64,000 bases of DNA, taken from NCBI RefSeq assembly GCF_003287935.1, contig NZ_CP030287.1, forward strand, positions 7,572,869 through 7,636,868, given 5' to 3'. Positions 2,910-30,988 of this stretch are shown one piece after another. A model generated the notes under the pieces. That model did not search any database and was not told where the DNA came from. It saw only the letters and a program-made list of their open reading frames with translations. This stretch comes from Streptomyces sp. ICC1 (lineage in GTDB: Bacteria > Actinomycetota > Actinomycetes > Streptomycetales > Streptomycetaceae). The translations under genes and the position numbers were made by a program. Each line of letters opens with the position of its first letter. The stretch's first letter is position 1.

Positions 2910-2936
2910 TTGGAAATGAAAACTATTTCGGATAGC
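2910..2936 (+). promoter_or_regulatory. Zur/Fur-like palindrome over probable promoter
   Basis: At 2913-2929 GAAAT and ATTTC form a perfect inverted repeat around a 7-base centre, in an AT-rich patch unlike its surroundings. Read as ATGAAAACTATTTCGGAT (2916-2933) it matches the left half of the actinobacterial Zur box (ATGAAAAC) exactly and the right half partly. It overlaps TTGGAA (2910) and GATAGC (2931), plausible -35/-10 elements for the operon beginning at 3028. Zinc control is an inference; a different Fur-family or unrelated repressor is possible. Confidence 0.4.
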
Positions 2937-3027
2937 TTCACCTCGGTTCGGTGCGGATGCCTCCTGTCGGGCGGTCCGCGCCGCAGGTATGCCCGAGAGC
3001 TGTCATGGCGGTCTGAGAGGGAGTCCC

Positions 3028-4359
3028 GTGGGACATCTGCTGGTTATCGAGAGCTGGGTGGGGTCGATGAGCAGGCTGCTGCCCAGGGCGATCCGCGAAG
3101 GCGGACACGAGTTCACCTTCGTCACCCGGGACCTGCACCACTACCTGCGGGGCGCCGGAGCCGACGGCCCGCACCCGCTGCTGGCGGCGCGCAACATCAT
3201 CACCGCGGACACCAACGACATGAACGCACTGCTGCCGTACCTGGAGCGGCTGCACGCCGTGCTGGGCTTCGACGGGGTCGTCTCCTCCTGCGACTACTAC
3301 CTGCCGGCGGTGGCGCGCACGGCCGAGCGACTGGGCTTGCCCGGCCCCGCCGCCGAATCGGTCGAGGCGGCCTGCCGCAAGGACCTGACCCGCCGGGTGC
3401 TGGCCGAGGCCGCGGTGCCCGGCCCCCGCTTCGCGGTCTGCGGTGATGTGGCGCACGCGCTGACAGCCGCCAGGGAGATCGGGTATCCGCTGGTCGTCAA
3501 GCCTGTCGACCTGTGCGCTGGGATGCTGGTTCGCGAGGTCCGCGACGAGGGGGAACTGGAGGCGGCCTGCCGGGCGCTGGCCGAGTTCCCCGTCAACGCG
3601 CGGGGCCAGGATCGTAGCCCCGTCTTCCTCCTCGAAGAACTCCTCACCGGCCCCGAAGTCAGTGTCGAGACCGTCTCGTTCGGCGGCGCCACGCACGTGG
3701 TCGGGGTCACGGACAAAAGCGTGGGCGGGGCCCCGGCCTTCATCGAAACCGGCCACATGTTCCCGGCGGGGATCTCGCCGGCGCTGGAGCGGGAGGCCGT
3801 CGACACCGCAGTGGCGGCGATCAAGGGCCTTGGGCTGGACCACATGGTCTGCCACACCGAGATCAAACTGACCCCCCAAGGGCCCCGGGTGGTCGAGGTG
3901 AACCCCCGCCCGGCCGGCAACCGGATCACCGAGCTGGTCCGCCATGTCACGGGTGTCGACCTGGCCGCCGCGTGTGTGGACGTGGCCCTCGGCCGGACCC
4001 CCGACCTCACGGCCCGAGTCACCGGCGTGCGCAGCGCCGCCATCGTCTTCCTGCTCCCCGACACCACCGGAACTCTCACCGCCATCGACGGCGCCGACGG
4101 CCTACGCGAGGAGCCCGAGGTCCTGGAGCTCACCCTCGCCGAGCCGGGCCGCACGGTGCGCGCCGTGACCAGCAACAACGAGTACCTCGGCCACATCATG
4201 ACCGCCGACACCCAGGGCGGCGGCGCCCGCGAGACGGCCGAGCGGCTGCTCTCCCGCCTGCGCCCCAGGTATCAAGAGTGTCCGGCTCAAGAGTGTCCGG
4301 CTCAAGAGCGTCCGGCTGAAGAGTGTCCGGCCGAGCTGCCGTCGGCGGTGCCCGCATGA
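3028..4359 (+). CDS. ATP-grasp amino-acid/peptide ligase
   Basis: A 443-residue ATP-grasp enzyme, expected to join a carboxylate to an amine through an acyl phosphate. GTG 3028 follows GAGAGGGAG and opens with VGHLLVIESWVGSMSRLLPR; an upstream ATG at 2989 lacks a ribosome site. N-terminal pre-ATP-grasp domain to about residue 110, then the ATP-binding fold with YPLVVKPVDLCAGM, VFLLEELLTGPEVSVE and the Mg-binding HTEIKLTPQGPRVVEVNPRP. It resembles the carnosine-synthase/L-amino-acid-ligase group (PF13535-like) rather than a purine enzyme. The C-terminus ends in a Cys-Glu repeat. The stop overlaps the next start as ATGA. First gene of a coupled operon. Confidence 0.85.
   Translation: MGHLLVIESWVGSMSRLLPRAIREGGHEFTFVTRDLHHYLRGAGADGPHPLLAARNIITADTNDMNALLPYLERLHAVLGFDGVVSSCDYYLPAVARTAERLGLPGPAAESVEAACRKDLTRRVLAEAAVPGPRFAVCGDVAHALTAAREIGYPLVVKPVDLCAGMLVREVRDEGELEAACRALAEFPVNARGQDRSPVFLLEELLTGPEVSVETVSFGGATHVVGVTDKSVGGAPAFIETGHMFPAGISPALEREAVDTAVAAIKGLGLDHMVCHTEIKLTPQGPRVVEVNPRPAGNRITELVRHVTGVDLAAACVDVALGRTPDLTARVTGVRSAAIVFLLPDTTGTLTAIDGADGLREEPEVLELTLAEPGRTVRAVTSNNEYLGHIMTADTQGGGARETAERLLSRLRPRYQECPAQECPAQERPAEECPAELPSAVPA
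4273..4332 (+). repeat. 15-bp tandem repeat encoding (Q/E)E(C/R)PA
   Basis: Four consecutive 15-base units (4273, 4288, 4303, 4318) with consensus CAAGAGTGTCCGGCT lie in frame inside the ATP-grasp gene. They encode QECPA, QECPA, QERPA and EECPA at the extreme C-terminus. Units differ at one to three positions, so copy number may vary between strains. Confidence 0.9.
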
Positions 4360-5189
4360 CCGCTCCCACCCTGCGCGAGCCCGCCGTCCGCACGCTGGAC
4401 CAGCTCATCGAACACGTCCGCACCGGCGGCTACGGCCCCGACCCGGCCCAGGAGCGCATCGCGCTCGCCTTCACCACCGCCCAGGCGGTACGCCACGAAG
4501 GCCGCGCCGGCGGCTACCGCAATGAAGTCCTCAGCCTGCGCCTGGCCGGGGCCGTCGGATCCTGCGCCGTGGAGCCCGGCGCGCTGCCCGCAGAGGCACT
4601 CGACGACTGCGTCGGCACCACCGTGGCCGAACTCCTCGACCACCCGCTCCTCCCCGTACGGATCGCCGCGCTCGACGCCTACCTCATGCGAGTACGCCCG
4701 CACACCCCCGACCACGGCGCCCGCCCCTACCCGCTGCCCGCCGGAAGCTCCCTGCACCGCTCCCGAGCCCGGGCCCGCGCGGTCGTCGACCTCCTCCCCT
4801 CGACCCGGGTCGGGAAGGTTCTCGTCATCGGCGTCGTCAACTCCCTGCTGGAACAGCTGCGTGAGCGCGGCACCGGCTACATCCCTTGCGACCTCAAGGG
4901 TGGAACCACCGAGTGGGGCGAGCCCGTCCGCACGGACGCCCTCGCGGAGCTGGAGCGCTGCGACGCGATCCTCGCCTCCGGCATGACGCTCGGGAACGGC
5001 ACCTTCCAGCCGCTGCTCGACCACGCCATCGCGACCGGCAAGCCCCTCGTCATGTTCGCGCAGACCGGGAGTGCCATCCTGCCGCGCTTCCTCGGCGCCG
5101 GGGTGAGCGCCGTGTCGGCCGAGCCCTACCCGTTCTTCTGGCTCGACGGCGGTCCCGGTGTCATCCACCGCTACGGAGGCACCCGGTGA
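4356..5189 (+). CDS. DUF4213/DUF364 Rossmann-like protein
   Basis: 277 residues, ATG 4356 inside ATGA that includes the stop of the ATP-grasp gene. The N-terminal half (TLDQLIEHVRTG, AQERIALAFTTAQAVRHEG) resembles DUF4213 with an enolase-N-like fold. The C-terminal half (GKVLVIGVVNSLLEQLRERG, LERCDAILASGMTLGNGTF, GKPLVMFAQTGSAILPRFL, YPFFWLDGGPGVIHRYGG) is the DUF364 Rossmann-like domain, which families databases label putative heavy-metal chelation. No catalytic role is established. Its tight coupling to ligase, PLP and epimerase genes argues for a biosynthetic or metal-handling role in the same pathway. Confidence 0.8.
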   Translation: MTAPTLREPAVRTLDQLIEHVRTGGYGPDPAQERIALAFTTAQAVRHEGRAGGYRNEVLSLRLAGAVGSCAVEPGALPAEALDDCVGTTVAELLDHPLLPVRIAALDAYLMRVRPHTPDHGARPYPLPAGSSLHRSRARARAVVDLLPSTRVGKVLVIGVVNSLLEQLRERGTGYIPCDLKGGTTEWGEPVRTDALAELERCDAILASGMTLGNGTFQPLLDHAIATGKPLVMFAQTGSAILPRFLGAGVSAVSAEPYPFFWLDGGPGVIHRYGGTR

Positions 5190-6307
5190 CCACCGCGCCC
5201 CTGCTGCACCGGCCGGCCCCAGGTGTCGCCAACCCCGACCTGCTCCACCTCATCGGCCGCACCCCGCTCGCCCGGGTCCGCACGGAACTCCCTTACCCCC
5301 ACCCCGGTTTCTGGGCCAAACTCGAATGTCTGAGCGCCGGTGGGATGAAGGCACGCGCGGCCGTCTCCATGCTGCGCGGTGCCCGTCGGCGTGGGGAGCT
5401 GCTCCCCGGCGCCCCCGTGGTCGAGTCGACCTCCGGCACGCTGGGTATCGGCCTGGCCTTCGCCGGGCAGGCCCTCGGTCATCCTGTTGTCCTCGTCGGT
5501 GACGCCGAACTGGAGCCCTCGATGCGCCAGTTGCTGCGCACCTACGGTGCCCAGCTGGAGCTCGTCGACCGGCCCGCCCCCGAGGGCGGCTGGCAGGCCG
5601 CCAGGATCGCCCGGCTCCGCGAGGTCCTGGCGAGGATGCCGGAGGCCTACTGGCCGGACCAGTACAACAACCCCGACAACCCGGCCGGGTACCTGTCGAT
5701 GGCCGCCGAACTGTGCGGCCAACTGGACCACTTGGACGTCCTGGTGTGCAGTGTCGGCACCGGCGGCCACAGCTCCGGACTGGTCGGTGCGCTGCGCCGG
5801 CGCTGGCCGCGGCTCAAGGTGATCGGCGTCGACTCCGTGGGCTCGGCGATCTTCGGCCAGCCCGCCCGGCCCCGTCTGATGCGCGGACTCGGCAGCAGCA
5901 TCCACCCCCGCAACGTCGCCCACCACGCCTTCGACGAGGTCCACTGGGTCGGCCCGGCCGAAGCGGTCGACGCCTGCCGCAGGCTCGCCCGTACCAGCTT
6001 CGTCAGCGGCGGCTGGAGCACCGGAGCCGTCGCCCTCGTCTCCGCCTGGGCGGCCCGGGTGGAACCGGGCGCCGTCGTCGCGACGGTCTTCCCGGACGGG
6101 CCGCACCGCTACCTGGGGACCGTCTACGACGACGACTTCTGCCACGCCCACGGCCTGGACCGAGCCGAACTCGCCGACCGCCCCCTGGAGATCCCGCACC
6201 CGTGGGCGACCGAGGCGACCGGCTGGGTCCGCTGCCGCACCGTCGTCGACCCGGTGGCGGCCGGCCGTCCCGTCGTACCCGCGCCCGTGCAAGGAGGTCC
6301 GGCATGA
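5186..6307 (+). CDS. Cysteine-synthase-like PLP enzyme
   Basis: 373 residues; GTG 5186 overlaps the previous stop (GTGA) and has GGAGG 6 bases upstream. Fold-type II PLP enzyme of the CysK/CBS/SbnA group: Schiff-base lysine in LSAGGMKARAAVSML (about residue 53), substrate loop ESTSGTLGIGLAFAG where the usual Asn of SGN is Thr, and phosphate/PLP loop SVGTGGHSSGL. Such enzymes replace the beta substituent of Ser/Cys-type amino acids; SbnA, for example, uses O-phosphoserine in diaminopropionate synthesis. The altered loop residues suggest an unusual substrate. It probably supplies a non-standard amino acid to the neighbouring ligase. Primary cysteine synthesis is less likely in this context. Confidence 0.82.
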   Translation: MTTAPLLHRPAPGVANPDLLHLIGRTPLARVRTELPYPHPGFWAKLECLSAGGMKARAAVSMLRGARRRGELLPGAPVVESTSGTLGIGLAFAGQALGHPVVLVGDAELEPSMRQLLRTYGAQLELVDRPAPEGGWQAARIARLREVLARMPEAYWPDQYNNPDNPAGYLSMAAELCGQLDHLDVLVCSVGTGGHSSGLVGALRRRWPRLKVIGVDSVGSAIFGQPARPRLMRGLGSSIHPRNVAHHAFDEVHWVGPAEAVDACRRLARTSFVSGGWSTGAVALVSAWAARVEPGAVVATVFPDGPHRYLGTVYDDDFCHAHGLDRAELADRPLEIPHPWATEATGWVRCRTVVDPVAAGRPVVPAPVQGGPA

Positions 6308-7353
6308 AGCTCAGCTGGAGCACCACGGAACTGGAGCTGGCCGAGCCGCTGCGCATCTCCCGATCGGTGATGGCCCGCCGCGACGCCGTCTGGGTCACCG
6401 TCGAACACGGCGGGCTGCGCGGCTGGGGCGAGGCCGTCAGCAGCGACTACCTGGGCCTGCCCACGACCCGGATCATCGAGCACCTGGTCGCCGCCCGCCC
6501 GGGCATCGAACGCCTCCCCGACCCCGAGACCGCATGGGATGAGTACGACGCCGGGAGCCCGCCGGGCCTTCCTGCCGGCGTTCTGGCGGCGATCGAGGCG
6601 GCCCTGCTCGACCTGGTCGGCAAGAGGGCCGACCGGCCCGTCCATCAGCTGCTCGGCACGCACGAAGCTCCCGCCGCGGCGACCGCCCGTACGATCGGCA
6701 TCATCGCGCCCGAGGCCGCCGCCGCGCAGGCCACCCGCCTCGCCGCCGCCGGATTCACCGTCCTCAAGGTCAAGGCGGGACACCCCGACCCGGCTCGGGA
6801 CCTCCACCGCGTGGCCGCCGTCCACTGCGCGGTCCCCGGGGCGAGTCTCCTGCTCGACCCCAACGGCGCCTGGAGCGAACACCAGGCCCTCGCCCTGCTG
6901 CCGCGCTTCGCCGCCCTCGGCGTCACCGCCGTGGAACAGCCGATCGCACCCGGCCGCCCCGACGCCCTCGCCCGCGTGGCGAAGGAGTCCCCGGTCCCCG
7001 TCATCGCCGACGAGGACGCGGTCTCCTACGAGGACGCCGTCGCGCTGGCCGGACGGGTCCACGGCGTGAACGTCAAACTGGCCAAGTGTGGCGGGGTACG
7101 GGCTGCGCTGCGCATCCACGAGGCCCTGCGCGGCAGCGGCACCGATCTGATGCTCGGCTGCCTCACCGCCAGCTCGCTGGGCATAGCGCCCGCCGTCCAC
7201 ATCGCCGACCGGGCCCGCTGGGTGGACCTCGACGGGCACCTGCTGCTCGCCGACGACCCCTGGACCGGAATCGGCGGTGCGGACGGCACCGTACGGGCCG
7301 CGAGTCGCTCCGGTCTCGGCGTCAGACGCGCCGACGGGGAGGCAGGACGGTGA
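6304..7353 (+). CDS. Enolase-superfamily epimerase
   Basis: 349 residues; ATG 6304 overlaps the upstream stop (ATGA), with GGAGG 7 bases before it. Member of the mandelate-racemase/muconate-lactonizing branch that includes L-Ala-D/L-Glu and other dipeptide epimerases. The barrel shows the first base in FTVLKVKAG (KxK), metal ligands in SLLLDPNGAW, VEQPI and VIADEDAV, and the second general base as VNVKLAKCGG. The C-terminus has LGCLTASSLGIAPAVH, typical of dipeptide epimerases (usually GCM.ES). Next to an ATP-grasp ligase it most likely epimerises a residue of a dipeptide or amino-acid conjugate; the substrate cannot be read from sequence. Confidence 0.82.
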   Translation: MKLSWSTTELELAEPLRISRSVMARRDAVWVTVEHGGLRGWGEAVSSDYLGLPTTRIIEHLVAARPGIERLPDPETAWDEYDAGSPPGLPAGVLAAIEAALLDLVGKRADRPVHQLLGTHEAPAAATARTIGIIAPEAAAAQATRLAAAGFTVLKVKAGHPDPARDLHRVAAVHCAVPGASLLLDPNGAWSEHQALALLPRFAALGVTAVEQPIAPGRPDALARVAKESPVPVIADEDAVSYEDAVALAGRVHGVNVKLAKCGGVRAALRIHEALRGSGTDLMLGCLTASSLGIAPAVHIADRARWVDLDGHLLLADDPWTGIGGADGTVRAASRSGLGVRRADGEAGR

Positions 7354-8657
7354 GAACCCTCGCCGCCGCACGGAGCTTTCCGCTCGCCGTGCGCCTCCTC
7401 CTGGTCAACCAGCTCGGCGTCAACACCGGCTTCTACCTGCTCATCCCGTACCTCGCCACCCACCTCACCGACGACCTCGGCATGTCGGCGGCCGTCGTCG
7501 GCATGGTCCTGGGCCTGCGCAACCTCAGCCAGCAAGGAATGTTCCTGATCGGCGGATCGGCCGCCGACCGGCTCGGCGCCCGCGGTGTGATCATCGCGGG
7601 ATGTGCGCTGCGCACGCTCGGATTCGCCCTGTTCGCGCTCGGCGACGGGCTTCCCGTGCTGCTGGCCGCCTCCATACTCAGCGGGCTCGCCGGGGCCCTC
7701 TTCAACCCGGCCGTGCGCACGTACATCGCCCAGGAGTCGAACGACCGCAAGGCGGAGGCGTTCGCGCTGTTCAACGTGTTCGCCACCACGGGAGCGCTGC
7801 TCGGGCCCCTCCTCGGCACCCTGCTGCTGCTCGTGGACTTCAAGGCGGCGGCGCTCACCGCAGCGGCCATCTTCGCGCTGCTCACCCTCGCCCAGACCAT
7901 GGTGTTGCCCGCCCGTTCCGTCCCCAGCCCGTCCGGGACCGTGGCCGGTGACTGGCGGGAGGTCTTCGGCAACCGCAGGTTCCTCGCCTTCGCGCTGGCC
8001 ATGGTCGGCATGTACGGGATGGAGAACCAGCTCTACCTGCTGCTGCCCCATGCCGCACACCAGGCCACGGGCTGGGACGGCTCCATCGGCCTGCTCTTCC
8101 TCGCCGGTACCGTCGTTAACCTGCTCTTCCAGCTGCGCATCACCCGGCGGCTGAAGTCCCGGGGGAGCCGCGCCCGCTGGATCGCCACCGGACTGGCCGT
8201 CATGGGGCTCGGCTTCGTCCCGCCCATGCTCGTCGCGAGCGCCTCCGGCACGCACCCGGCGCGCCTGCTGCCCGTACTCGCCGGTGCCCTGCTGCTCCAC
8301 CTCGGCGTGATGATCGCCCAGCCGTTCGTCATGGAGTTGATACCGGCCTTCGGCCGAGACGGCCTCACCGGCACGTACTACGGCCTGTTCTACGTGGTCT
8401 CCGGCTTCGCAGCCGCCATCGGAAACATGGCCGTCGGCTGGGCCATGGACCTCGGCGGGAACAGCAGTCTCGCCTGGCTGCCGTGGGCCTTCTGCCTCTG
8501 CCTGGGCCTGTCGTCCGCGATCGCGCTCGCCGCGCTGCACCGCAGAGGCGCCCTCCTGTCTCTTTTACACCTCTCCCACCCCACCCGACCCAGAAAGGAC
8601 AGCGCCCCGTCATGTACGACCAGACCCGACCGGAACGCTCCATCGCGGCGGCCATGA
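7350..8657 (+). CDS. MFS transporter, probable exporter of the pathway product
   Basis: 435 residues with about 12 hydrophobic segments; GTG 7350 overlaps the epimerase stop (GTGA). The MFS signature after helix 2 reads GGSAADRLGARGVI, and helices include LGLRNLSQQGMFLIGG and FNPAVRTYIAQES, like MdtG/YceL-type drug exporters. It is the fifth coupled gene and probably exports the product. Odd: after the last helix the frame continues through a polar tail that overlaps the next gene by 46 bases, and codon 406 (8565-8567) is TTA, which needs the bldA tRNA. The tail begins at a Tn5-end-like motif (8556-8574), so the native C-terminus may have been altered. Confidence 0.82.
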   Translation: MRTLAAARSFPLAVRLLLVNQLGVNTGFYLLIPYLATHLTDDLGMSAAVVGMVLGLRNLSQQGMFLIGGSAADRLGARGVIIAGCALRTLGFALFALGDGLPVLLAASILSGLAGALFNPAVRTYIAQESNDRKAEAFALFNVFATTGALLGPLLGTLLLLVDFKAAALTAAAIFALLTLAQTMVLPARSVPSPSGTVAGDWREVFGNRRFLAFALAMVGMYGMENQLYLLLPHAAHQATGWDGSIGLLFLAGTVVNLLFQLRITRRLKSRGSRARWIATGLAVMGLGFVPPMLVASASGTHPARLLPVLAGALLLHLGVMIAQPFVMELIPAFGRDGLTGTYYGLFYVVSGFAAAIGNMAVGWAMDLGGNSSLAWLPWAFCLCLGLSSAIALAALHRRGALLSLLHLSHPTRPRKDSAPSCTTRPDRNAPSRRP

Positions 8658-9061
8658 CGTACGACCAGCTGCTCGAACGCGTCCGCTACGAGGGCGCCTA
8701 CCCCACCCGCGAACGCGCCGAGGAAGCCGTCCGAACCGTTATCGCCGCTCTCGGACGGCAGATCACAGGCGACGAACGCGTCGACCTCGCCCGCCGCCTG
8801 CCCGTCGAAGCCGCGCTCACCCTGACCGCGCAGATCCCCGACACCGAGCAGCTCACCGGATGGGGGTTCATCAAGGACCTGGCCGCCCGTACCGGCGCCA
8901 CACCGGCCACCACCCGCTGGGACACCGGCGCCGTCCTCGCCCCCGTCTCCGCCCTCGCCGGCCCCGACCTCCTCGCCCGCATCCTGCGCCGGCTCCCCGA
9001 CGGCTACGCCCTCCTCTTCGGCCAGCCACAACTGCTCCAGCCCCAGCCGGCAACCGCCTGA
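8612..9061 (+). CDS. DUF2267 protein
   Basis: 149 residues, ATG 8612, with AAAGGA about 12 bases upstream. TYDQLLERVRYEGAYPTRER, AEEAVRTVIAALGRQITGDE and VDLARRLPVEAALTL are the typical DUF2267 pattern; the family is small, cytoplasmic, of unknown function and often sits near stress or metal-homeostasis genes in actinobacteria. It overlaps the MFS frame by 46 bases, so it may be transcribed with the operon, but its own ribosome site and the altered MFS tail leave open that it is a separate gene that became joined. Confidence 0.75.
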   Translation: MYDQTRPERSIAAAMTYDQLLERVRYEGAYPTRERAEEAVRTVIAALGRQITGDERVDLARRLPVEAALTLTAQIPDTEQLTGWGFIKDLAARTGATPATTRWDTGAVLAPVSALAGPDLLARILRRLPDGYALLFGQPQLLQPQPATA

Positions 9062-9110
9062 CCAACCTGCTCGCTGTCCCCAGCGCCGACCAGTAAGGCC
9101 ATCGCCAGGT

Positions 9111-9136
9111 ACCCGATACCCGATACCCGATACCCG
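9111..9136 (+). repeat. 7-bp tandem repeat (ACCCGAT x3.7)
   Basis: ACCCGAT is repeated head to tail three full times plus ACCCG, between the DUF2267 stop and the convergent ATPase gene. It is a simple slippage repeat and no function is evident. Confidence 0.9.
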
Positions 9137-9201
9137 CGCCGCGGAGCTGCGCTCGGCCGGCCATGGCGAAGTGGCGACGCCGTGCTTGTAGGCCGGGGCT
9201 G

Positions 9202-9603
9202 CTACCAGGGGGCGTGGGCGCAGATGGTCTTTCCGCCGTCGGGGGTGGGTTCGGTGTGGGTGTGGGTGGTGAGGCGTTCGATGAGGTGACATCCGTAGCC
9301 GCCGCTGCCGTCGGTCTGGGGCCGGCGGGGCTCAGCCGGGTGAGGGCTGGTGTCGGTGACGCGGATCTCGATGTGGTCGTCGTGGAGTTCGAGGTGGAGG
9401 GCGGCGGGTCCCTCGGTGTGACGGATCGCGTTGGTGACGAGTTCGGTGATGACCAGGAGGACCGCGTCGGGGTATTCGGGCTGGGCGGGGGCCCGGACCT
9501 GTGCGGCGCGGTGGAGGAAGTCGCGAGCGGCGCCCCGTACTGTCGTCGTCGGCTGGCCGGCACGTGGCACGGGCTGATCGAGGACGAGCAGGGGCAAAAC
9601 CAC
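9202..9603 (-). CDS. Anti-sigma-type ATP-binding protein (HATPase)
   Basis: 133 residues from GTG 9603, chosen for the GGAGGG site 5-6 bases upstream. Compact GHKL domain: N-box ELVTNAIRHTEGPAALHLEL, D-box DDHIEIRVTDTS, and G2 box GGYGCHLIERLT. This is the RsbW/SpoIIAB-like single-domain ATPase class, very abundant in Streptomyces and mostly of unknown partner. It lies downstream of, and on the same strand as, the PP2C gene at 9797-11122, so the two may form a partner-switching module. Confidence 0.85.
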   Translation of the reverse strand: MVLPLLVLDQPVPRAGQPTTTVRGAARDFLHRAAQVRAPAQPEYPDAVLLVITELVTNAIRHTEGPAALHLELHDDHIEIRVTDTSPHPAEPRRPQTDGSGGYGCHLIERLTTHTHTEPTPDGGKTICAHAPW

Positions 9604-9796
9604 GGGTCTCCCTCCACACGGTGGGCTTCCACGGCGTCTGCCCCCTCTGCGGGTGCCCACCCTATGGCGCCCCTCCCCAATCGGCCTTGCCTGCCCGGGT
9701 GAGCGACGGGGATTCCGGTGCGCCGGGGATCTGCCGGTCCGACCTCGCCGACCTGCCCGGCGTTGCGGGCCGCATGCGGGCGGATCTGCTGCCGCT

Positions 9797-11122
9797 TTAC
9801 TGCCGCTGAGGAGCGGGCCATCGTGTCGTTGACGGTGGTGAGGCGTCGGTGAGGTCGGCACCGTTGGCGGCATCACGTTCGGAGTTGTGGACGCCGCGCC
9901 AGTCCAGGCACATGACGGTGGCGTCGTCGTCGAGGTGGCCGTCGCCGGCGTCGACGATCGCTTTGATGAGGGTGCGGGCGGCTTCGCGGGGGTGCAGTTC
10001 GCGGGTGCGAATGATCAGGTCCGACAGGTCGAGGCTCTCGGCGTCGCGCTCCAGCATGCCGTCGGTCAGCATGATCAGCCGGTCGCCGGGCCGAAGGTCC
10101 AAGGTCTGCACCCGGTAGGTGTTGGGCTGTGAGGGTTCGATATTGAGGCCGAACGCCCGGTCGACTTTCGGAACGATCTCCTCGACCTTGCCGTCTCGCA
10201 TCCGCAGTGGCCAGGGGTGCCCGGCGTTGACGAACTCGGTCCGGCCGTCGAGGAGGCTGATGCGCAGCAGCTGGCCGGTGACGAAGCCGCTGCGGCCGTG
10301 GTCACGCATGGCCTGGTCGGCTTGGCGGGCCTGCTCAGCGAGGTCGGCACCTTCCCGTCGGGCCCGTCGCAGGGCGCCCACGACCAGGGTGGCGAGCAGC
10401 GCGGCGTCAACGTCGTGGCCCATGGCGTCGGTCACCGACAGCTGGACGGTGTCCCGGTCGATGACGTAGTCGAAGGTGTCGCCCCCGACATGCTCGGCGG
10501 GTTCCAGGGCCCCGGCGACCGCGAACTGCGCCGCCTCGCACGCCAGTGACGCGGGGAGCAGCCGGTGCTGGATCTCGGCTGCCAGGCTCAGCGGCTTGGT
10601 GCGCCGGCCCCACTGGTACACGTCGGTGTGGGACCGGTTCGCGATGACGATGTACGCAAGCGCGTGCGCGGTTTCGCCGATCTCCCGCATCACCTCCGCG
10701 TCCGGTACCGCGGGCAGGAACAGTTCCAGGAGTCCGATGGCGTCCCCGCGGTTGGTCACTGGAGCGACGACCCGCACCAGCCGGCTCTCGCCTCTGTGTT
10801 CCACCTTCGGCTGCTGGCTGCGGATCACGTCGTCGTACAGGGTGCCGCGCAGCGGGATCCGCTGGGCCGGCTCATCGGTCTCGACGCGGTCCGCCGCTCC
10901 CAGCCGTACGACCGAATTGCCGGTGAAGTCAGTGATCAGGAACGACACCGACGCCGCCCCGATGTGCTCCCTGAGCATCCGTGCCACCACGTCGAGCGAC
11001 TCCACCGGCGCCGCGGCCTCCGACGCCTCCAGTATCCCCGCCAGAGTCATCGCCCTGCCGTGGCGGCCTCCGCCGGCGTCGGACCGAGACGCCCGCCCGC
11101 TGTCCGGCTCTCCTGCGGTCAC
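9797..11122 (-). CDS. GAF-PP2C (RsbU/SpoIIE-type) phosphatase
   Basis: 441 residues from GTG 11122 (AAGGGG 7 bases upstream). N-terminal GAF-like sensor, about 40-190 (VARMLREHIGAASVSFLITD, VVAPVTNRGDAIGLLELFLP), then a SpoIIE phosphatase domain from about 220: AAEIQHRLLPASL, HVGGDTFDYVI, SVTDAMGHDVDAALLATLV, NAGHPWPLRMRDG, GDRLIMLTDGML and the metal-binding HLDDDATVMCLDW. It should dephosphorylate an anti-anti-sigma factor and so release a sigma factor. No anti-anti-sigma gene is adjacent; the HATPase downstream could be the cognate kinase. The frame stays open further upstream, but that part looks non-coding. Confidence 0.85.
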   Translation of the reverse strand: MTAGEPDSGRASRSDAGGGRHGRAMTLAGILEASEAAAPVESLDVVARMLREHIGAASVSFLITDFTGNSVVRLGAADRVETDEPAQRIPLRGTLYDDVIRSQQPKVEHRGESRLVRVVAPVTNRGDAIGLLELFLPAVPDAEVMREIGETAHALAYIVIANRSHTDVYQWGRRTKPLSLAAEIQHRLLPASLACEAAQFAVAGALEPAEHVGGDTFDYVIDRDTVQLSVTDAMGHDVDAALLATLVVGALRRARREGADLAEQARQADQAMRDHGRSGFVTGQLLRISLLDGRTEFVNAGHPWPLRMRDGKVEEIVPKVDRAFGLNIEPSQPNTYRVQTLDLRPGDRLIMLTDGMLERDAESLDLSDLIIRTRELHPREAARTLIKAIVDAGDGHLDDDATVMCLDWRGVHNSERDAANGADLTDASPPSTTRWPAPQRQ

Positions 11123-11521
11123 AGCGGACCCCTTGCTGCTCGATGCCACCCGGGAACTGCGCCCCGTACGCGAACGATCCGCGCCGGAGCGGCATCGGAC
11201 AGGCCCCATTGCACCACGAGAGCCCTCGGACCCGGCTGCCTGGCTGGCTGGCCCGCCCCTCTGGAACCACGTACGGCCAAGGACTGAACGGGTCGTACGA
11301 ACCCCGTGTCGCGGGGCGCCCGCGTGGAATGGGGCGGGCCGTTGATTCGGGGAGCGGTGATCGTCGCCGTCGCGGTGCGCTGCGTAGCGCCTGCGTGCGC
11401 TTGTGCCCCGGCCTGCGCGGCGTGACCCGGCGACGACCGTCTTGCGCCCGCGCCCCACTGCCTCTCCGCCCGTGGTCGATTACCTCTCCGACATGCGAAC
11501 GAAAATCTGTGATGGCCGGAG

Positions 11522-11550
11522 TAGACATTGCGAGGTGGTGTGGTTATGGT
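11522..11550 (+). promoter_or_regulatory. Vegetative-type promoter before repeat array
   Basis: TAGACA (11522) and TATGGT (11545) are separated by 17 bases, a good match to HrdB-type promoters. The first tract downstream has no convincing gene but runs through the repeat array to the hairpin at 12412. Confidence 0.55.
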
Positions 11551-11651
11551 TTCTCTCGTAGCCCAGAGAGACAGCAGGGCCTGGCAGAGACGAACTGCCG
11601 GGCAGCAGTACATGCAGAACCCGTAGTTGCAGTGCGCAGGACGGTGCGGTG

Positions 11652-12190
11652 GTGGAGTTTCGAAGCCAGAGCGGTTGCAGGACGGCGACGGGACTGGCGA
11701 CCGGACCGGGTGGCCCGCAGTGATCAGGGGTCGCCGAGAGCAGTACCGCAGTTGACGCAGTGGCAGTACCCGCAGTTCGCAGTACCCGGCAGTGAAGTCA
11801 GTGAGTGGTACCTCGGTGAGCGTGTCGAAGTGCGGGCGCGTACACCGGGAGGTTCGGCAGTGGGGTTCTAAGCCAGAGCAGACGCAAGACAGGCGACGGG
11901 GCTGGCTGCCGAAACGTGGCGCTCGGTCAGGTCACGAGCAGTACAAAGCGGTTCGCGGTACAGCGGTAAGAGCAGTACCCAGCAGTGAAGTGAGTGGAGC
12001 AGTACCTCGGTGAAGGCGTCGGCTGCTGGCGCGCGCATCGGGAAGTTCGGTAGTGGGGTTCCAAGCCAGAGCAGTTGCAGGAACGGCGACGGGGCTGGCT
12101 GCCGGAGAGTGGCGCTCAGCCAGGCCACGGAGCAGTTCGCAATATCAGCAGTACCCGCAGTAGAGCAGTACCCGCAGTACGCAGTCCCCC
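11652..12190 (+). repeat. Imperfect ~200-bp tandem repeats rich in GCAGTAC
   Basis: Units begin at 11652, 11860 and 12053 with a shared opening (GTGGGGTTCTAAGCCAGAGC and variants), then GGCGACGGGGCTGGC, then clusters of GCAGTAC, GTGAAGTNAGTG and GTACCTCGGTGA. A more degenerate copy may begin near 11548. GCAGTAC occurs at 11605, 11740, 11763, 11779, 11938, 11972, 11999, 12148, 12165, 12174 and, outside the units, 12374. Spacing of 208 and 193 bp shows the units have diverged by indels. Confidence 0.8.
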
Positions 12191-12411
12191 GCAGGTAGGT
12201 AGTTGATCACCGAGGGAAGAACGGAGGAGCCGAGCGCCATCAGGATCGCCCGGGCGTCAGTGTGAGTCCGGGTACCGCAGGACATCGTGAGTGAGGTGGT
12301 CTCCGGTCAAGCAACCGCGATCCCCGCGCCTCCGGCAGCAGTCAGGCCGCGCACGCGGAAACAAAAGGCCGGCGCAGTACTAGGGCCGGCAGATGGTGTA
12401 GCAGTTCCTTC

Positions 12412-12442
12412 GGGGCCCTGGTGCCATAGGCACCAGGGCCCC
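12412..12442 (+). terminator. 14-bp perfect hairpin terminator
   Basis: GGGGCCCTGGTGCC pairs perfectly with GGCACCAGGGCCCC across an ATA loop. It lacks a U-tract, as is usual for streptomycete terminators. It closes the candidate RNA unit. Confidence 0.8.
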
Positions 12443-12719
12443 TCCGTGCGCTCGGTGAGAGAGGTGCAGCGACCGCAGACGACTCGATTGGCCGTCTCGG
12501 CGCTGACGACTACCCCGCCTTAACGATGGGCCACCGCGACTGCGGCCCGGCCACGGCGACGAGGGCGATGCTCCGTCGTCGAAGACCTTGCCGGTCAGCG
12601 TGATTACCGCGGCCCCTCCCGCTCATGGCACGGCCCAACGGCCGAATTCCTTCTGCTGAGTGCGAGATTCCACTGCGAGGCTACGGGCGTCCATCCGGAT
12701 CGCACCAGACGGAGTTCCC

Positions 12720-13253
12720 ATGAACCGAATACGCTTTCGCCCCTTCTTATTGACCGCCGCCGCGGTGCTTGCCCTGGTCCCAGCCGGGCTTGGCGCCACG
12801 GCGGCGCAGGCTTCGCCCGCCACTTCGGCTGTTGCCCCGGCCGCCCTGGGCAGCAGTGACACCGAGACCGTCATCACGGGCACGACCGGCCTGAACCGGG
12901 GCGAGGCCTGGTATTCGCCCGACCGCCGGACCATGCTGATCCAGCAGTACGACGGCCACGTGGTGCTCTACCGCGACAACGTTGCCATCTGGACGGCCGT
13001 GGGCAGCTACGGCTACGGGAATACCTTCTACATGCAGGCCGACGGGAACCTCGTCTCCTACGACGCGGCGATGCGCCCGCTGTGGAACAGTGCCACCGAC
13101 CATCACTGGGGTGCGCATCTGGCGATCCAGAACGGCGGGAACCTCGTGGTCTATTACGGGTCCACCCCGCTGTGGTGGTCCAATTTCCGGCCGGGCGGCC
13201 CTGTGGATCCGGGCGACGACTGCACCCCGAGGCCTGGCAGGCTCTGCCCGTAG
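12720..13253 (+). CDS. Secreted B-lectin (bulb-type mannose-binding lectin)
   Basis: 177 residues, ATG 12720 preceded by GGAG. Signal peptide about 1-31 (basic MNRIRFRPF, hydrophobic core, cleavage near AQA). The mature part has bulb-lectin repeats: MLIQQYDGHVVLYRDNVAIW, YMQADGNLVSYDAAMRPLWN and LAIQNGGNLVVYYGSTPLWW; the QxDGNLVxY-type mannose motif is recognisable in the first two and as QNGGNLVVY in the third. It is probably an extracellular carbohydrate-binding protein. Codon 10 (12747-12749) is TTA, so synthesis should depend on bldA, fitting a developmental or antagonistic role. A hairpin terminator follows. Confidence 0.85.
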   Translation: MNRIRFRPFLLTAAAVLALVPAGLGATAAQASPATSAVAPAALGSSDTETVITGTTGLNRGEAWYSPDRRTMLIQQYDGHVVLYRDNVAIWTAVGSYGYGNTFYMQADGNLVSYDAAMRPLWNSATDHHWGAHLAIQNGGNLVVYYGSTPLWWSNFRPGGPVDPGDDCTPRPGRLCP

Positions 13254-13269
13254 GGCGAGCACACTGAGT

Positions 13270-13297
13270 GGCCCCCTTGCTGCTGACTGAGGGGGCC
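13270..13297 (+). terminator. Hairpin after the lectin gene
   Basis: GGCCCCCT and AGGGGGCC form an 8-bp stem about 16 bases after the lectin stop, with a 12-base loop. Confidence 0.65.
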
Positions 13298-14808: not shown

Positions 14809-16283
14809 ATGAACTCCACACGCAAGAACGAGCGCTCTTCCCGCAGTCGCACCGGCGTCCCGCTTTCGGCACTGGTTCCGAGCGGGGCAGCCGATTCGGT
14901 TCCTCGACTCGCCGGAGCCGTTCCGCAGGTCCGAGCTGCTCGGGCGGTTCCGGCGTCGGGCCCGCCTCGACTCAGGGCGAGTTCCGCCACCGAAGGCGAT
15001 CACGCCCGCGCTGGCTCCCGTCGAAGCCTTCGCCGATCTCGACATGCCGGGCGCCCTCGGCGCGCAAACGTGAGCGTGCCCTTCCCGATCCAGGGCGCCA
15101 CCCTGCCCAACGCCCCCGCGGGCCGGGACGTCCTGGGCCGCGGCCGCACGGGCTCCGGAAAGACCCTGGCATTCGGCCTCGCGCTGCTGGCCCGTACGGC
15201 CGGCCAGAGCGCCGAGTCGGGGCAGCCGCTCGCGCTGATCCTCGTACCCACCCGTGAACTGGCCCAGCAGGTGACCGATGCCCTCACCCCGTACGCCCGC
15301 TCGGTGAAGCTCCGCCTGACCAACGTCGTCGGCGGCATGCCCATCGGCCGCCAGGCTGGCGCCCTGCGCGGCGGCGCCGAAGTCGTGGTTGCCACCCCCG
15401 GCCCGGCTGAAGGACCTCATCGACCGTGGTGATTGCCGGCTGAACCAGGTCGGGATCACCGTCCTGGACGAGGCCGACCAGATGGCTGACATGGGCTTCA
15501 TGCCTCCGGGTCACCGAGCTCCTCGACCAGGTGCGTCCCGAAGGTCAGCGGATGCTGTTCTCCGCCACCCTGGACCGCAACGTCGACCTGCTGGTGCGCC
15601 GCTATCTGACCGACCCCGTCGTGCACTCCGTCGACCCCTCGCAGGGCGCGGTCACCACGATGGAGCACCACGTCCTGCACGTCCACGGCGCCGACAAGCA
15701 GCGGACGACGACGGAGATCGCCGCCCGCGAAGGCCGCGTGATCATGTTTCTCGACACCAAGCACGCCGTGGACCGCCTCACCCAGGAGCTCCTCAACAGC
15801 GGGGTCCGTGCCGCCGCCGGCCCAGTTCAAGACCGGACACGTCAGCGTCCTGGTCGCCACGAACGTCGCCGCTCGCGGGATCCACGTCGACAACCTCGAC
15901 CTGGTCGTCAACGTGGACCCGCCGACCGACCTGAAGGACTACCTGCACCGCGGCGGCCGTACCGCGCGCGCCGGCGAGTCCGGCAGCGTCGTCACCCTGG
16001 TCACCCCCAACCAGTGCCGCGACATGCCCCGTCTCATGCAGGCCGCCGGGATCGTCGCGCAGACCACCCAGGTCCGCTCCGGCGACGAGGCCCTCAACCG
16101 GATCACGGGCGCCCCCGCAACCTCCGGAATCCCCGTCACCATCACCGCGCCGGTCGTCGAACGCGTCAAGCGCGGTGCGGCCTCCCGCGTCAGGCGGGGG
16201 CCCGTTTCGGCCGCCCAGCGCGCGAGTGTGCGTCAGTCCGCCTTCGATGCGGCGGCCTCAGAACCACGTGATCAGACGACTGA
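14809..16283 (+). pseudogene. DEAD-box RNA helicase, multiply frameshifted
   Basis: Starts MNSTRKNERSSRSRTG at ATG 14809 behind AAGGAAGG. Helicase motifs are clear but scattered over frames: PFPIQ (Q motif), GRGRTGSGKTLAFGLAL (motif I), VPTRELAQQV (Ia), ATPG, VLDEADQMADMGFMP (DEAD variant), FSATLDRN (III), VLVATNVAARGIHVDN and YLHRGGRTARAGESG (V, VI). Single-base changes near 15400 and 15505 shift frame, several more lie in the N-terminal 250 bases, and near 15815 roughly 15 codons between RAA and AQFKTGHV are missing. The protein cannot be functional. Csp plus helicase is a common pair, so this was probably a cold-adaptation gene. Confidence 0.85.
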
Positions 16284-22519: not shown

Positions 22520-22628
22520 TACCGAATATGCACGTATTCGGTCAAGTGCCGCACGAAACCTGCCCATTGGATTTGTGATGCACTGCGGTAGGGTCTGCCG
22601 CACCCCTGGCTGATCGAGGAGCGTGCAC

Positions 22629-24212
22629 GTGTTCAACCGGACCAGATGCCTGCAGATCACTGCGGCCCTTGCGTCCATATCCCTGCTCTCCGGATGCGGC
22701 CTGTTCTCGGACGACGGCGGCGACGGCGGACAGCGGATTGTCGTCGGAACGACGAGCGCACCCACCACCCTCGATCCGGCGGCGGCCTGGGACGGTTCCT
22801 GGGAGCTCTACCGGAACGTCTACCAGACCCTGCTCGCCTTCCCCACGGGTGCCACCAAGCCCCAGCCGGACGCGGCCCAGAGCTGCGAGTTCACGGATTC
22901 CGGGAACGAGTCGTACCGCTGCGTGCTCAAGAAGGGCCTGAAGTTCTCCAACGGGGAGACGCTCGACGCCAAGGCCGTCAAGCACTCCCTCGACCGGATC
23001 AAGACCATCGACGCCCCGGCCGGCCCCAAGGCCCTCTTCGGCAGCCTGGACAAGATCGAGACGCCGGACGCGCTGACGGTGGTCTTCCACCTGAACACCC
23101 CCGATGCCACCTTCCCCTTTGTGCTCGGCTCGCCGGCCGCCTCGCTGGTCGCGCCGAAGGAGTACCCGGCCAACAAGCTGCGCGAAGGCTCCGGGGTCAC
23201 CGGCTCCGGCCCGTACACCCTCGAGTCCTACAAAGAGGGCGGCGAGGCGGTCCTGAACCGCAACGGCGTCTACACCGGCTTCGCCAACCGCCGCAACAAC
23301 GGCGTGACCATCCGGTACTTCGCGGACTCCAAGAAGATGATCGCGGCGCTCAAGTCCAAGGAGATCGACGCGACGTACCGAGGCCTGTCCGCCCCGGAGA
23401 TCAAGGACCTGCAGACCCCCGAATCGCACAACGCGGGCGTCCAGGTCGTCGAGAACGTCGGCGCCGAGATCCGCTACCTGGTCTTCAACCCCAGGGACCC
23501 GCAGGCCGCCAAGGCCCCGGTGCGCCAGGCGATCGCCCAGATCGTCGACCGCGGGGCGCTCGTCTCCAAGGTCTACCAGGGCACCGCCGAGCCGTTGTAC
23601 TCGATGGTCCCCAAGGGGGTCGTGGGCCACAAGACGCCCTTCTACGACACCTACGGCCAGGTCGACGTCGCCAAGGCGAAGAAGATCCTCAAGGACGGCG
23701 GGGTCGCCACGCCGGTCGAGATGACCTTCTGGTACACCACCGACCGCTACGGCGCCTCCACCGCCGACGAGTTCACCGAGCTCAAGCGCCAGCTGGACGA
23801 GAGCGGCCTGTTCAAGATCACCCTGCGCGGCCAGCCCTGGAAGGTCTTCCAGGAGGGCTACAAGAAGGGCGAGTACCCGGTCTTCGGCCGAGGCTGGTTC
23901 CCCGACTTCCCGGACCCGGACAACTTCATCGCCCCGTTCGTCGGCAAGGACAACGCCGTCGGAACGCCGTACGAGGCCAACGAGATCCTGAACGTCATCC
24001 TGCCCAAGTCCCGCCGCGAGAGCGACCGGTCGGCCGGCATCCACGAGTTCGAGAAGGCCCAGCAGATCTTCGCCGACGACGTCCGGCTGCTTCCGCTGTG
24101 GCAGGGCAAGCTGTACGTCGCCGCCCGCGACGACATCGCGGGTGCCGAGCGCGCCCTCGACCCGCAGACCGTCATGCAGGTCTGGGAGCTGTACCGCAAG
24201 ACCAGCTGGTAG
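22629..24212 (+). CDS. ABC solute-binding lipoprotein, family 5
   Basis: 527 residues. GTG 22629 has GAGGA 8 bases upstream; GTG 22623 would be too close. Signal peptide with lipobox LLSGC (Cys about 20), so it is a membrane-anchored lipoprotein. Family-5 (peptide/nickel/opine) binding protein signatures: TTLDPAAAWDGSWELYRNVY, LKFSNGETLDAKAVKHSLDR and PVRQAIAQIVDR. No permease or ATPase genes adjoin it, so it either uses another transporter, for instance the one at 25.7-32 kb, or is an orphan receptor. Confidence 0.9.
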   Translation: MFNRTRCLQITAALASISLLSGCGLFSDDGGDGGQRIVVGTTSAPTTLDPAAAWDGSWELYRNVYQTLLAFPTGATKPQPDAAQSCEFTDSGNESYRCVLKKGLKFSNGETLDAKAVKHSLDRIKTIDAPAGPKALFGSLDKIETPDALTVVFHLNTPDATFPFVLGSPAASLVAPKEYPANKLREGSGVTGSGPYTLESYKEGGEAVLNRNGVYTGFANRRNNGVTIRYFADSKKMIAALKSKEIDATYRGLSAPEIKDLQTPESHNAGVQVVENVGAEIRYLVFNPRDPQAAKAPVRQAIAQIVDRGALVSKVYQGTAEPLYSMVPKGVVGHKTPFYDTYGQVDVAKAKKILKDGGVATPVEMTFWYTTDRYGASTADEFTELKRQLDESGLFKITLRGQPWKVFQEGYKKGEYPVFGRGWFPDFPDPDNFIAPFVGKDNAVGTPYEANEILNVILPKSRRESDRSAGIHEFEKAQQIFADDVRLLPLWQGKLYVAARDDIAGAERALDPQTVMQVWELYRKTSW

Positions 24213-24341
24213 CGGGGCCGCGGCCGGCCGGGTCCGTACGCGGACGCGGCCGCCGCACTGTCAGTGGTCCCGGGTAAGTTCTGGAGCAGTCGCGCGAAGC
24301 AGTTGCCCGCGCGCGAAGAACTTGTACCGGAGGTTGTCGCC

Positions 24342-25019
24342 GTGACCCAGATGCTGCCCGAGTCCTGGCTCCCCGTCCTCGGCGGGGAGCTGGAGCAGCC
24401 CTACTTCAAAGAGCTCACCGAGTTCGTCGAGAAGGAGCGGGCGAACGGGCCGGTCTACCCGCCCCGCGAGCAGGTCTTCGCGGCGCTGGAGGCCACCGAC
24501 TTCGACAAGGTGAAGGTGCTGGTCCTCGGCCAGGACCCGTACCACGGCGCCGGCCAGGGCCACGGCCTGTGCTTCTCGGTCCAGCCGGGCGTCAAGACCC
24601 CGCCCTCGCTGCGCAACATCTACAAGGAGATGCAGAGCGAGCTGGGCACCCCCGTCCCGGACAACGGCTATCTGATGCCGTGGGCCGAGCAGGGCGTGCT
24701 CCTGCTCAACGCGGTGCTCACCGTGCGGGAGGCCGAGCCCAACTCGCACAAGGGCAAGGGCTGGGAGAAGTTCACCGACGCGGTGATCCGCGCCGTCGCC
24801 GAGCGTCCCGACCCGGCCGTCTTCGTCCTGTGGGGGGCGTACGCGCAGAAGAAGCTCCCGCTGATCGACGAGGAGCGGCACGCGGTCGTCAAGGGAGCCC
24901 ACCCCTCCCCGCTGTCGGCCAAGAAGTTCTTCGGCTCCCGGCCCTTCACGCAGATCAACGAGGCCGTCGCCGCCCAGGGCCATGCGCCGATCGACTGGCG
25001 CATTCCGGACCTGGGCTGA
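24342..25019 (+). CDS. ung: Uracil-DNA glycosylase
   Basis: 225 residues from GTG 24342, which has GGAGG 8 bases upstream; the frame is open further upstream without a site. Family-1 UDG: water-activating motif LGQDPYHGAGQGHGLCFSV (Asp about 65), uracil pocket PWAEQGVLLLNAVLTV with the key Asn, and the leucine loop GAHPSPLSAKKFFGSRPF. Removes uracil from DNA as the first step of base-excision repair. Length and motifs are normal. Confidence 0.97.
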   Translation: MTQMLPESWLPVLGGELEQPYFKELTEFVEKERANGPVYPPREQVFAALEATDFDKVKVLVLGQDPYHGAGQGHGLCFSVQPGVKTPPSLRNIYKEMQSELGTPVPDNGYLMPWAEQGVLLLNAVLTVREAEPNSHKGKGWEKFTDAVIRAVAERPDPAVFVLWGAYAQKKLPLIDEERHAVVKGAHPSPLSAKKFFGSRPFTQINEAVAAQGHAPIDWRIPDLG

Positions 25020-25117
25020 TGCCCCACCGCGCCTAGGCGGCATTGCCGGTGCCTGCGGCTAGCGTCTTGACGACCGGACCGGAGCAGGTCCGGCGGAGCA
25101 AGCCGGAGGCCGCGTTG

Positions 25118-25603
25118 ACGGAGCAGCAGGAGGCGTCGGAGGACGCCGTCATGACCAGGATCGGCCAAGCGGTCATCCTGCTGCACGCCGGCGACCGCGA
25201 GGAGGCCCGCAACCGGCTCGGCGACATCTGGTCCGAGATCGGCGAGGAGGGCGACTCCCTGCACCGCTGCACGCTGGCGCACTACATGGCCGACGCGCAG
25301 GACGACCCCGCCGAGGAGCTGGCCTGGGACCTGCGCGCCCTGACGGCCGCCGACGGGCCGGGCCCGCCGCCGGCCGTCCGGGTCTTCTACCCGTCGCTGC
25401 ACCTGAGCCTGGCCGCCGACTACGTGAAGCTACGGCGCCCCGAGGCGGCCAGGATCCACCTGGCGCGGGCCCGCGCCGCCACCGGGGCGCTGGGCGACGA
25501 CGGCTACGGGAACGGTGTACGGGCCGCCATCGCCCGGCTGGAGCGGCGGCTCGCGACGGAACCGGACGGGGCGCACCGGCCCTTCCCGGAGCAGCACCAG
25601 TAG
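25118..25603 (+). CDS. TPR-like hypothetical protein
   Basis: 161 residues if it starts at TTG 25118, preferred because GGAGG lies 5 bases upstream; ATG 25151 is the alternative. Helical pairs such as AVILLHAGDREEARNRLGDI, TLAHYMADAQDDPAEELAWD and SLAADYVKLRRPEAARIHLA suggest a tetratricopeptide-like fold. I recognise it as a conserved streptomycete protein of unknown role. It follows ung at 98 bases and may be read with it. Confidence 0.75.
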   Translation, partial: TEQQEASEDAVMTRIGQAVILLHAGDREEARNRLGDIWSEIGEEGDSLHRCTLAHYMADAQDDPAEELAWDLRALTAADGPGPPPAVRVFYPSLHLSLAADYVKLRRPEAARIHLARARAATGALGDDGYGNGVRAAIARLERRLATEPDGAHRPFPEQHQ

Positions 25604-25723
25604 CCGGACCCGGGGGAAGGGCTCCGCGGCCCCGCCGAGGGAGCCTGAGCGGGTCTGAGAGGGCTTGAGCGGGCCTGAGCCGGCCGGTCCTGGGTCTCCG
25701 GGGGCCTGTCTCTTATACCCAGG

Positions 25724-28997: not shown

Positions 28998-29126
28998 TGC
29001 AGTCGGCCGCTCGGGCCGGCGCCCGCCGCCCCTTGTGGGGACGGCAGCCGCCGCCTGCGGCCTTCACCTGCCCTTCGGACTAGCGCATGTGCGGTGAAGG
29101 CGAACCAGCTGTGTCTGACGGGTCTG

Positions 29127-29167
29127 GAGCCCGGGGCCGCCCGGCCGGGCCGGGCGGCCCGGGCTCC
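29127..29167. terminator. Intra-operon hairpin after the binding-protein gene
   Basis: Nearly perfect inverted repeat of about 18 bp (GAGCCCGGGGCCGCCCGGCC with its complement, one bulge) between the binding-protein stop and the DppB-type start on the minus strand. Such structures commonly stabilise the highly expressed binding-protein message and attenuate the rest. Confidence 0.6.
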
Positions 29168-29180
29168 TGGAGCGTCCCGG

Positions 29181-30947: not shown

Positions 30948-30988
30948 GTTGGTCCAACCTCCATTGGTGGGTGAATCGTTGATGCGGT

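Follow-up and report, generated by a model that had tools for sequence, protein, structure and literature searches.

What would a bacterium make with an amino-acid ligase, a DUF364 protein, an SbnA-like enzyme, an epimerase and an exporter placed behind a zinc-type operator? The question is raised by a five-gene operon at 3028-8657 on the forward strand of a 64,000-nucleotide stretch of the Streptomyces sp. ICC1 genome (contig NZ_CP030287.1, positions 7,572,869 to 7,636,868; hereafter the window). We consider it probable that this operon is repressed by the zinc regulator Zur and that its proteins make and export a small zinc chelator derived from amino acids (a zincophore), whose metal complex would be reimported by a dedicated ATP-binding cassette (ABC) importer; the identity of the product and its binding of zinc we infer from gene content. 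A zinc-type operator, biosynthetic enzymes, an exporter and an importer together form the signature of a metallophore, and the system is apparently of a biosynthetic type without prior description: the portions of the open-licence PMC literature available to us contain no earlier account of the operon. Papers are cited by PMC number for the excerpts that hold the statement in question.

Genes of the operon

An earlier reading of the letters alone, made without database searches (the sequence-only reading), had described five overlapping genes for a ligase, a DUF364 protein, a pyridoxal phosphate (PLP) enzyme, an epimerase and a major facilitator superfamily (MFS) exporter. These were confirmed as consecutive genes joined by 4-bp overlaps, behind a Zur-type operator:

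2914..2934, forward strand: Zur-type operator AAATGAAAACTATTTCGGATA, 94-114 bp upstream of the ligase start, 11/15 on a 21-bp motif
3028..4359, forward strand: ATP-grasp ligase of the L-amino-acid-ligase type, 443 aa; PF13535, PF18603 (LAL_C2) and PF18130 above cut-off
4356..5189, forward strand: DUF364 protein, 277 aa; enolase-N-like and Rossmann-like domains
5186..6307, forward strand: SbnA-like PLP enzyme of the beta-replacement family, 373 aa; NCBIfam and PDB matches
6304..7353, forward strand: MR/MLE-superfamily epimerase of the dipeptide/N-acyl-amino-acid type, 349 aa; NCBIfam match and motif residues
7350..8657, forward strand: MdtH-like MFS exporter, 435 aa; PF07690, NCBIfam MdtH 163 bits (cut-off 469)

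The LAL_C2 domain (61.8 bits against a cut-off of 29.4) assigns the predicted ATP-grasp ligase to the L-amino acid ligases, and a PDB search returned the L-amino acid ligase BL00235 first (3vot, E 6.5e-29) and BacD next. Residues K118, K158, E278, E290 and N292 are conserved in 80/80 aligned rows (residue counts refer to the window aligned with 78-79 of the relatives described below). The DUF364 protein scores above the Pfam cut-off for PF04016 and has both domains of the two-domain fold.

By profile the PLP enzyme is closer to SbnA (TIGR03945, 254 bits) than to cysKM (165 bits), and its top PDB match is SbnA (5d87, E 2.9e-44). It falls short of the SbnA equivalog cut-off of 350 bits, which two other genes in the genome exceed. 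K55, R140 and Y160 are conserved in all 80 aligned rows, as is the unusual loop SGT; a second unusual loop, MKAR, is found in 79/80. In SbnA itself R132, Y152 and S185 are residues with assigned roles; at Y152 and S185 the PDB chains 5d84 and 5d87 are not alike. Dipeptide epimerases use a KxK motif and a second lysine as acid-base residues and a D/E/D triad as metal ligands. At the sequence level the window's epimerase has all of these together with the DxD motif (K155, K157, D185, E211, D236, K261, D308 and D310, none of them missing from more than one of the 79 aligned rows). Its two NCBIfam matches, to DgcA with 220 bits and to L-Ala-D/L-Glu epimerase with 138 bits, are below cut-off.

Family profile searches of the operon and its continuation found neither nonribosomal peptide synthetase (NRPS) modules nor an IucA/IucC-type NRPS-independent siderophore (NIS) synthetase, in agreement with the sequence-only reading. 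CntL/CntM-type enzymes were likewise absent among six window proteins (Pfam, NCBIfam) and the five further genes described below (Pfam; NCBIfam for four of them), and profile searches of the window genes and the same five genes detected no SbnB-like dehydrogenase or lyase.

Conservation among relatives

A scan of named genomes with the DUF364 protein returned 289 relatives, of which the best 80 loci were kept for counts; these span Streptomyces, Kitasatospora, Embleya, Wenjunlia and one record titled Actinobacteria bacterium. The sequence-only reading had staked its interpretation on co-conservation of the five genes, and this is what the best 80 of 289 loci display: the ligase, DUF364 and PLP genes were present in all 80, the epimerase in 79 and the MFS gene in 77. 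Locus L044 has no MFS gene despite room for one; L078 and L100 break off early; in L046 and L049 just a fragment of the gene was seen. Two further families of actinobacteria, represented by L192 and L195, have the block as well, together with methyltransferase, binding-protein and permease genes, at 48-71% identity.

Two neighbouring genes were not counted as part of the system. The DUF2267 gene that the sequence-only reading had placed at the end of the operon (8612-9061) overlaps the 3' end of the MFS gene, is absent from the block in 80/80 relatives and was dropped as a sixth member; it probably marks a rearrangement breakpoint. A divergent GNAT acetyltransferase gene (2260-2862), which has its intergenic region in common with the Zur box, was also left out, being present in only 29/80 loci.

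A Zur-type operator

The Zur motif of S. coelicolor has been given as tGaNNatSatNNtCa and that of actinobacterial znuA as taaTGaNAANNNTTNtCANta (PMC5472717). We scored the last 200 bp before the ligase in 79 promoters including that of the window, excluding L093 and L099, in which the ligase start is cut off. A 21-mer at ≥11/15 was found in 78/79 promoters, against 13/1984 random 200-bp windows drawn from these loci and 8/1975 shuffled promoters; a 15-mer at ≥9/11 was found in 62/79, against 48/1984 and 19/1975, respectively. A Zur motif at the promoter, the mark of a Zur regulon, is thus found across the family, and in the window the site at 2914-2934 is the only 21-mer at ≥11/15 within 64 kb.

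Similar boxes stand at other genes of the window's genome. Its znuA has two at the 5' end (12/15 and 11/15), and the 14-mer TGAAAACGATTTCC, found in the operon's relatives L034, L036, L037, L044 and L049, also adjoins its ribosomal L33/L31, CobW and S14 genes; in S. coelicolor, Zur controls gene kinds such as these (PMC6103462). Given the conserved motif and the like boxes at znuA and at the ribosomal-protein/CobW genes, the predicted regulator is most likely Zur, with another Fur-family protein as the less probable candidate. The metal control that the sequence-only reading had drawn from the promoter palindrome is borne out to this extent.

Two other lines of enquiry were set aside. A search of the whole genome for TGRNAATSATTNYCA allowing 2 mismatches was not specific enough (61 matches against 18 control matches per strand), so motif scoring was used instead; and in the excerpted Mycobacterium smegmatis Zur RNA-seq study (PMC7174638) there is no DUF364/PLP operon, so it lends no independent support. 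A further Zur-like 21-mer (12/15) lies close to the chromosome end (L134 at 3480, C1 about 13980).

An importer half, split off in the window strain

In most of the 80 loci the operon continues beyond the exporter. A SAM-dependent methyltransferase gene was found on the same strand in 73, a gene for an SBP_bac_5 substrate-binding protein (SBP5) in 74 and genes for two binding-protein-dependent permeases in 74 and 72, with 76-77 of the loci having room for them. Wherever gene maps were drawn, the methyltransferase and importer genes sit behind the MFS gene, and in the close relatives L202-L205 they complete a ten-gene operon with a double ATPase last. The best models were Opp5A/NikA for SBP5 and Opp2B/NikB and Opp2C/NikC for the permeases, all far below NCBIfam cut-offs; the match of SBP5 to the CntA model was weak (66.8 bits against a cut-off of 800). 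By gene content, relatives therefore hold what is predicted to be a complete make-export-reimport set.

In the window strain the next five genes lie 0.65 Mb away, at C1:6.916-6.921 Mb:

L161 (C1:6908000-6927500) 7685-13284, reverse strand: methyltransferase, SBP5, two permeases and double ATPase

Identity of the detached genes to those of L034 is 86% for the methyltransferase, 93% for the binding protein and 93% and 92% for the permeases. In L034, from Streptomyces sp. ISL-66, the ten-gene operon is unbroken. The window's MFS protein is full length, aligning with residues 4-425 of the 425-aa L034 protein. With the exporter intact and the remaining genes so far off, the operon appears to have been broken between its MFS and methyltransferase genes by a rearrangement. 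The detached half is joined to a short zinc-ribbon NUDIX-like frame (read by eye).

The window has oligopeptide-type transporter genes of its own at 22623-31936, comprising two SBP_bac_5 proteins and permease/ATPase relatives. Those at 25.7-31.9 kb were rejected as the partner importer, with just 23-33% identity to the partner genes.

A second DUF364 operon and a wider class

The window's genome contains another DUF364 operon, with a 13/15 Zur-type box just upstream:

L117 (C1:1950000-1966000) 6957-12790, reverse strand: FecB substrate-binding protein, FecCD, ATPase, DUF364, GHMP-type kinase and SbnA-like PLP enzyme

Among 199 genomes of the same genus, 84 have a DUF364 relative, 51 of the window type (≥68% identity) and 33 of this second type (39-44%). 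Both types were found in the window's own genome only, one further genome having a marginal match; this single co-occurrence compares with 8.5 expected (Fisher p 4e-4, ignoring phylogeny and with 12 candidates scored per genome). Mutual exclusion is not strict, as strain names such as S. subrutilus are listed for both types.

We surveyed L117 and 20 further second-type loci, from 20 of the 32 other genomes having this type. In every one of the 21 the PLP gene is no more than two genes away from DUF364; an MFS gene is present in 19/21 (not L117 or L143), an ABC importer in 19/21 (17 of FecCD type and two of Nik type; not L139 or L143) and a GHMP-type kinase in 17/21. Strong boxes (21-mer ≥12/15 or 15-mer 11/11) stand near the genes in 20 of the 21, with none in L143; 12/15 on the 21-mer was reached by 10/1984 control windows.

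A class-wide search found DUF364 relatives in 34/394 genomes, four of them marginal. Of the 15 strong ones outside the genus we analysed 11: a PLP gene close to DUF364 and an MFS gene are present in 11/11, and an importer in 10/11 (not L196). L192 and L195 are of the window type, importer genes included; the remaining nine are more like the second type, though the kinase is not present in all of them. Boxes score ≥13/15 in 8/11, with 12 for L195 and 11 for L193 and L192. The nine (L191, L193, L194 and L196-L201) are DUF364+PLP operons from other actinobacterial families, most with siderophore-type importers, and several have two or three Zur-type boxes, mainly in the gap before a divergent MFS gene.

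It is conceivable, though we favour this somewhat less than its opposite, that Actinobacteria have an entire class of so far undescribed, Zur-controlled zincophores built around DUF364 and the SbnA-like enzyme. DUF364 would then be a chelator-building protein, and the class would have at least four architectures:

Architecture 1 (window type): ligase, epimerase and methyltransferase with a Nik-type importer
Architecture 2: GHMP kinase with a FecBCD importer
Architecture 3: methyltransferase with a Nik-type importer
Architecture 4: PLP-DUF364-MFS-FecCD-ATPase with a divergent GHMP kinase

PLP and MFS genes also stand alone as pairs in the window's genome:

L215 8776-11222 and L216 8104-10496: PLP+MFS pairs, PLP 53-55% and MFS 44-48% identical to L034

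A similar pair occurs at L033 376-2744. The pairs in the window's genome have no Zur box, so this type of PLP enzyme also works outside zinc control; this suggests a portable make-and-export unit, which possibly yields a one-enzyme exported amino acid.

Proposed pathway

On zinc shortage, Zur would leave the operator. In a beta-replacement, the SbnA-like enzyme would then exchange the leaving group of O-phospho- or O-acetylserine for an amine nucleophile. The product of SbnA is N-(1-amino-1-carboxyl-2-ethyl)-glutamic acid (ACEGA), an aminopolycarboxylate, as is toxin A. Because the operon lacks an SbnB to cleave it, a C-N linked product of this kind would be retained whole. DUF364 might modify or condense this unit, the ligase join it to another amino acid and the epimerase reset one alpha-carbon; in relatives, the methyltransferase could decorate the product. 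The order of these steps is a guess. The MFS protein would export the product, and the metal complex would be recovered by the SBP5-type importer (here 0.65 Mb away) or perhaps by the FecBCD importer that the second DUF364 operon encodes. In the second type, the GHMP-type kinase could provide a phosphorylated substrate to the SbnA-like enzyme, as SbnI does for SbnA. SbnB was rejected as an essential partner: of the 51 carriers, 25 were tested and 7 of these have no SbnB at cut-off, so the operon would function independently of it.

The paper describing the DUF364 structure proposed condensation or hydrolysis in the making of metal-binding flavin-, pterin- or siderophore-like chelators (PMC2954201). 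DUF364 is the protein that the architectures share, and if a chelator-building step of a new kind exists, it is the foremost candidate to carry it out.

Comparison with known systems

Nearest in kind are the aminopolycarboxylic-acid metallophores ethylenediaminedisuccinic acid (EDDS) and ethylenediaminesuccinic acid hydroxyarginine (EDHA), made, like the predicted product, by NRPS-free actinobacterial clusters. Their aes genes include one for an SbnA-like PLP enzyme, to which the window's enzyme (best NCBIfam model SbnA, 254 of 350 bits) may correspond, and their hallmark is an SbnB-like dehydrogenase with an argininosuccinate-lyase-like EDDS lyase. The window operon lacks both dehydrogenase and lyase and the system adds DUF364, a separate ligase, an epimerase, a methyltransferase and a Nik/Opp importer; we therefore do not file it in this family, although it may work like it. 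EDDS of Amycolatopsis japonicum is Zur-controlled (PMC6103462) and EDHA of Streptomyces is iron-responsive (PMC10702961). The EDHA cluster had gone undetected by antiSMASH (PMC8914351), version 7 of which has since included the aminopolycarboxylic-acid type (PMC10320115).

With the first steps of staphyloferrin B (sbn) synthesis the operon shares a PLP enzyme nearest to SbnA by profile and PDB match, and the kinase and SbnA-like enzyme of the second operon recall the SbnI-SbnA pair; unlike that pathway, the window operon has neither SbnB nor an NIS synthetase, and its PLP enzyme scores 254 against the 350-bit cut-off. Bacilysin likewise combines an ATP-grasp amino acid ligase (BacD) with an MFS exporter (BacE), whereas the window system has a Zur-type box, DUF364, a PLP enzyme and an importer, and no anticapsin genes were seen in the operon. 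Staphylopine and pseudopaline (CntKLM and CntA-F) follow the same small amino-acid metallophore logic of biosynthesis, export and NikA/CntA-class ABC import; in contrast, no nicotianamine-synthase-like or opine-dehydrogenase match was found in the window system. Pseudopaline is Zur-controlled (PMC6103462), as is coelibactin of S. coelicolor, a proposed zincophore made by an NRPS (PMC6103462; PMC3430247), which the window operon lacks. Two candidate parallels were discarded: a Serratia DUF364 protein tied to prodigiosin, with no metal data in the excerpt (PMC4046660), and kasichelin, an NRPS-type siderophore with an ATP-grasp gene (PMC12305651).

Weighing the explanations

Several observations weigh against a zincophore operon under Zur control. 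The window's own box is weak: on the S. coelicolor 15-mer it scores 6/11, no better than background, and the highest 15-mer score anywhere in the promoter, 7, is the one most frequent among controls; Zur control may be weakened in this strain. Chance 11/15 matches occur, a third, unplaced one lying within the 3-kb znuA locus. The promoter counts come from kin sequences rather than independent events, at the best 80 of 289 loci. No 21-mer at ≥11/15 is present in the 19.5-kb stretch of the detached half, nor at the two stand-alone PLP+MFS pairs. The PLP enzyme is below the SbnA cut-off and differs at two loop positions, and 18/25 carriers have an SbnB above cut-off elsewhere in the genome (in the window strain at C1:1081094, far from the operon). 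The metallophore interpretation of the sequence-only reading is supported by co-conservation, the Zur box and the importer in relatives. It fails in two details: DUF2267 is no member, and the operon of this strain is split and has a weak box.

Nickel/cobalt-class models (NikA, NikB, NikC) match the importer best, and the conserved core GAYAAT-N7-ATTRTC also resembles the classical Fur box, which would suit a metallophore for nickel, cobalt, copper or iron under another Fur-family regulator. Aspergillomarasmine A, for one, binds zinc, nickel and cobalt (PMC11091072). Yet all NCBIfam importer matches are far below cut-off, and the motif fits the reported S. coelicolor Zur motif (PMC5472717) and resembles the znuA and ribosomal-protein/CobW boxes of the window's genome; we regard this explanation as unlikely.

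It is rather less likely still that zinc limitation induces a bacilysin-like antimetabolite or antibiotic dipeptide instead of an uptake ligand. A BacD-type ligase, an exporter and the free-standing PLP+MFS pairs would fit such a product; importer genes after the exporter in 72-74/80 loci, and in 19/21 and 10/11 of the other DUF364+PLP loci, point instead to product recovery. Salvage of peptides or cell-wall dipeptides under zinc starvation, as in murein recycling, would make sense of an epimerase resembling L-Ala-D/L-Glu epimerases, an Opp/Nik-class importer and a ligase, but leaves unexplained the SbnA-like enzyme, DUF364, the methyltransferase, the exporter and those DUF364+PLP loci without any ligase or epimerase relative, and we think it very improbable.

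Implications and other observations

If the zincophore explanation is correct, a metabolite for zinc acquisition, built along an ATP-grasp/PLP/DUF364 route by an operon free of NRPS, NIS and Cnt enzymes, would be common, the window type being present in about a quarter of the own-genus genomes sampled (51/199, DUF364 at ≥68% identity). DUF364, with a structure since 2010, would gain a directly testable functional context. Metallophore systems as such are a known kind, among which DUF364 and the SbnA-like enzyme may stand at the centre of a new biosynthetic class. Small aminopolycarboxylate zinc chelators are of interest as metallo-beta-lactamase inhibitors (PMC8319579).

Elsewhere in the window, a 120-aa DEAD-box helicase fragment (15070-15432) covers just part of the DEAD domain profile, and a Na+/H+ exchanger frame (582-1691) matches profile positions 122-374 of 375 only and is perhaps truncated.

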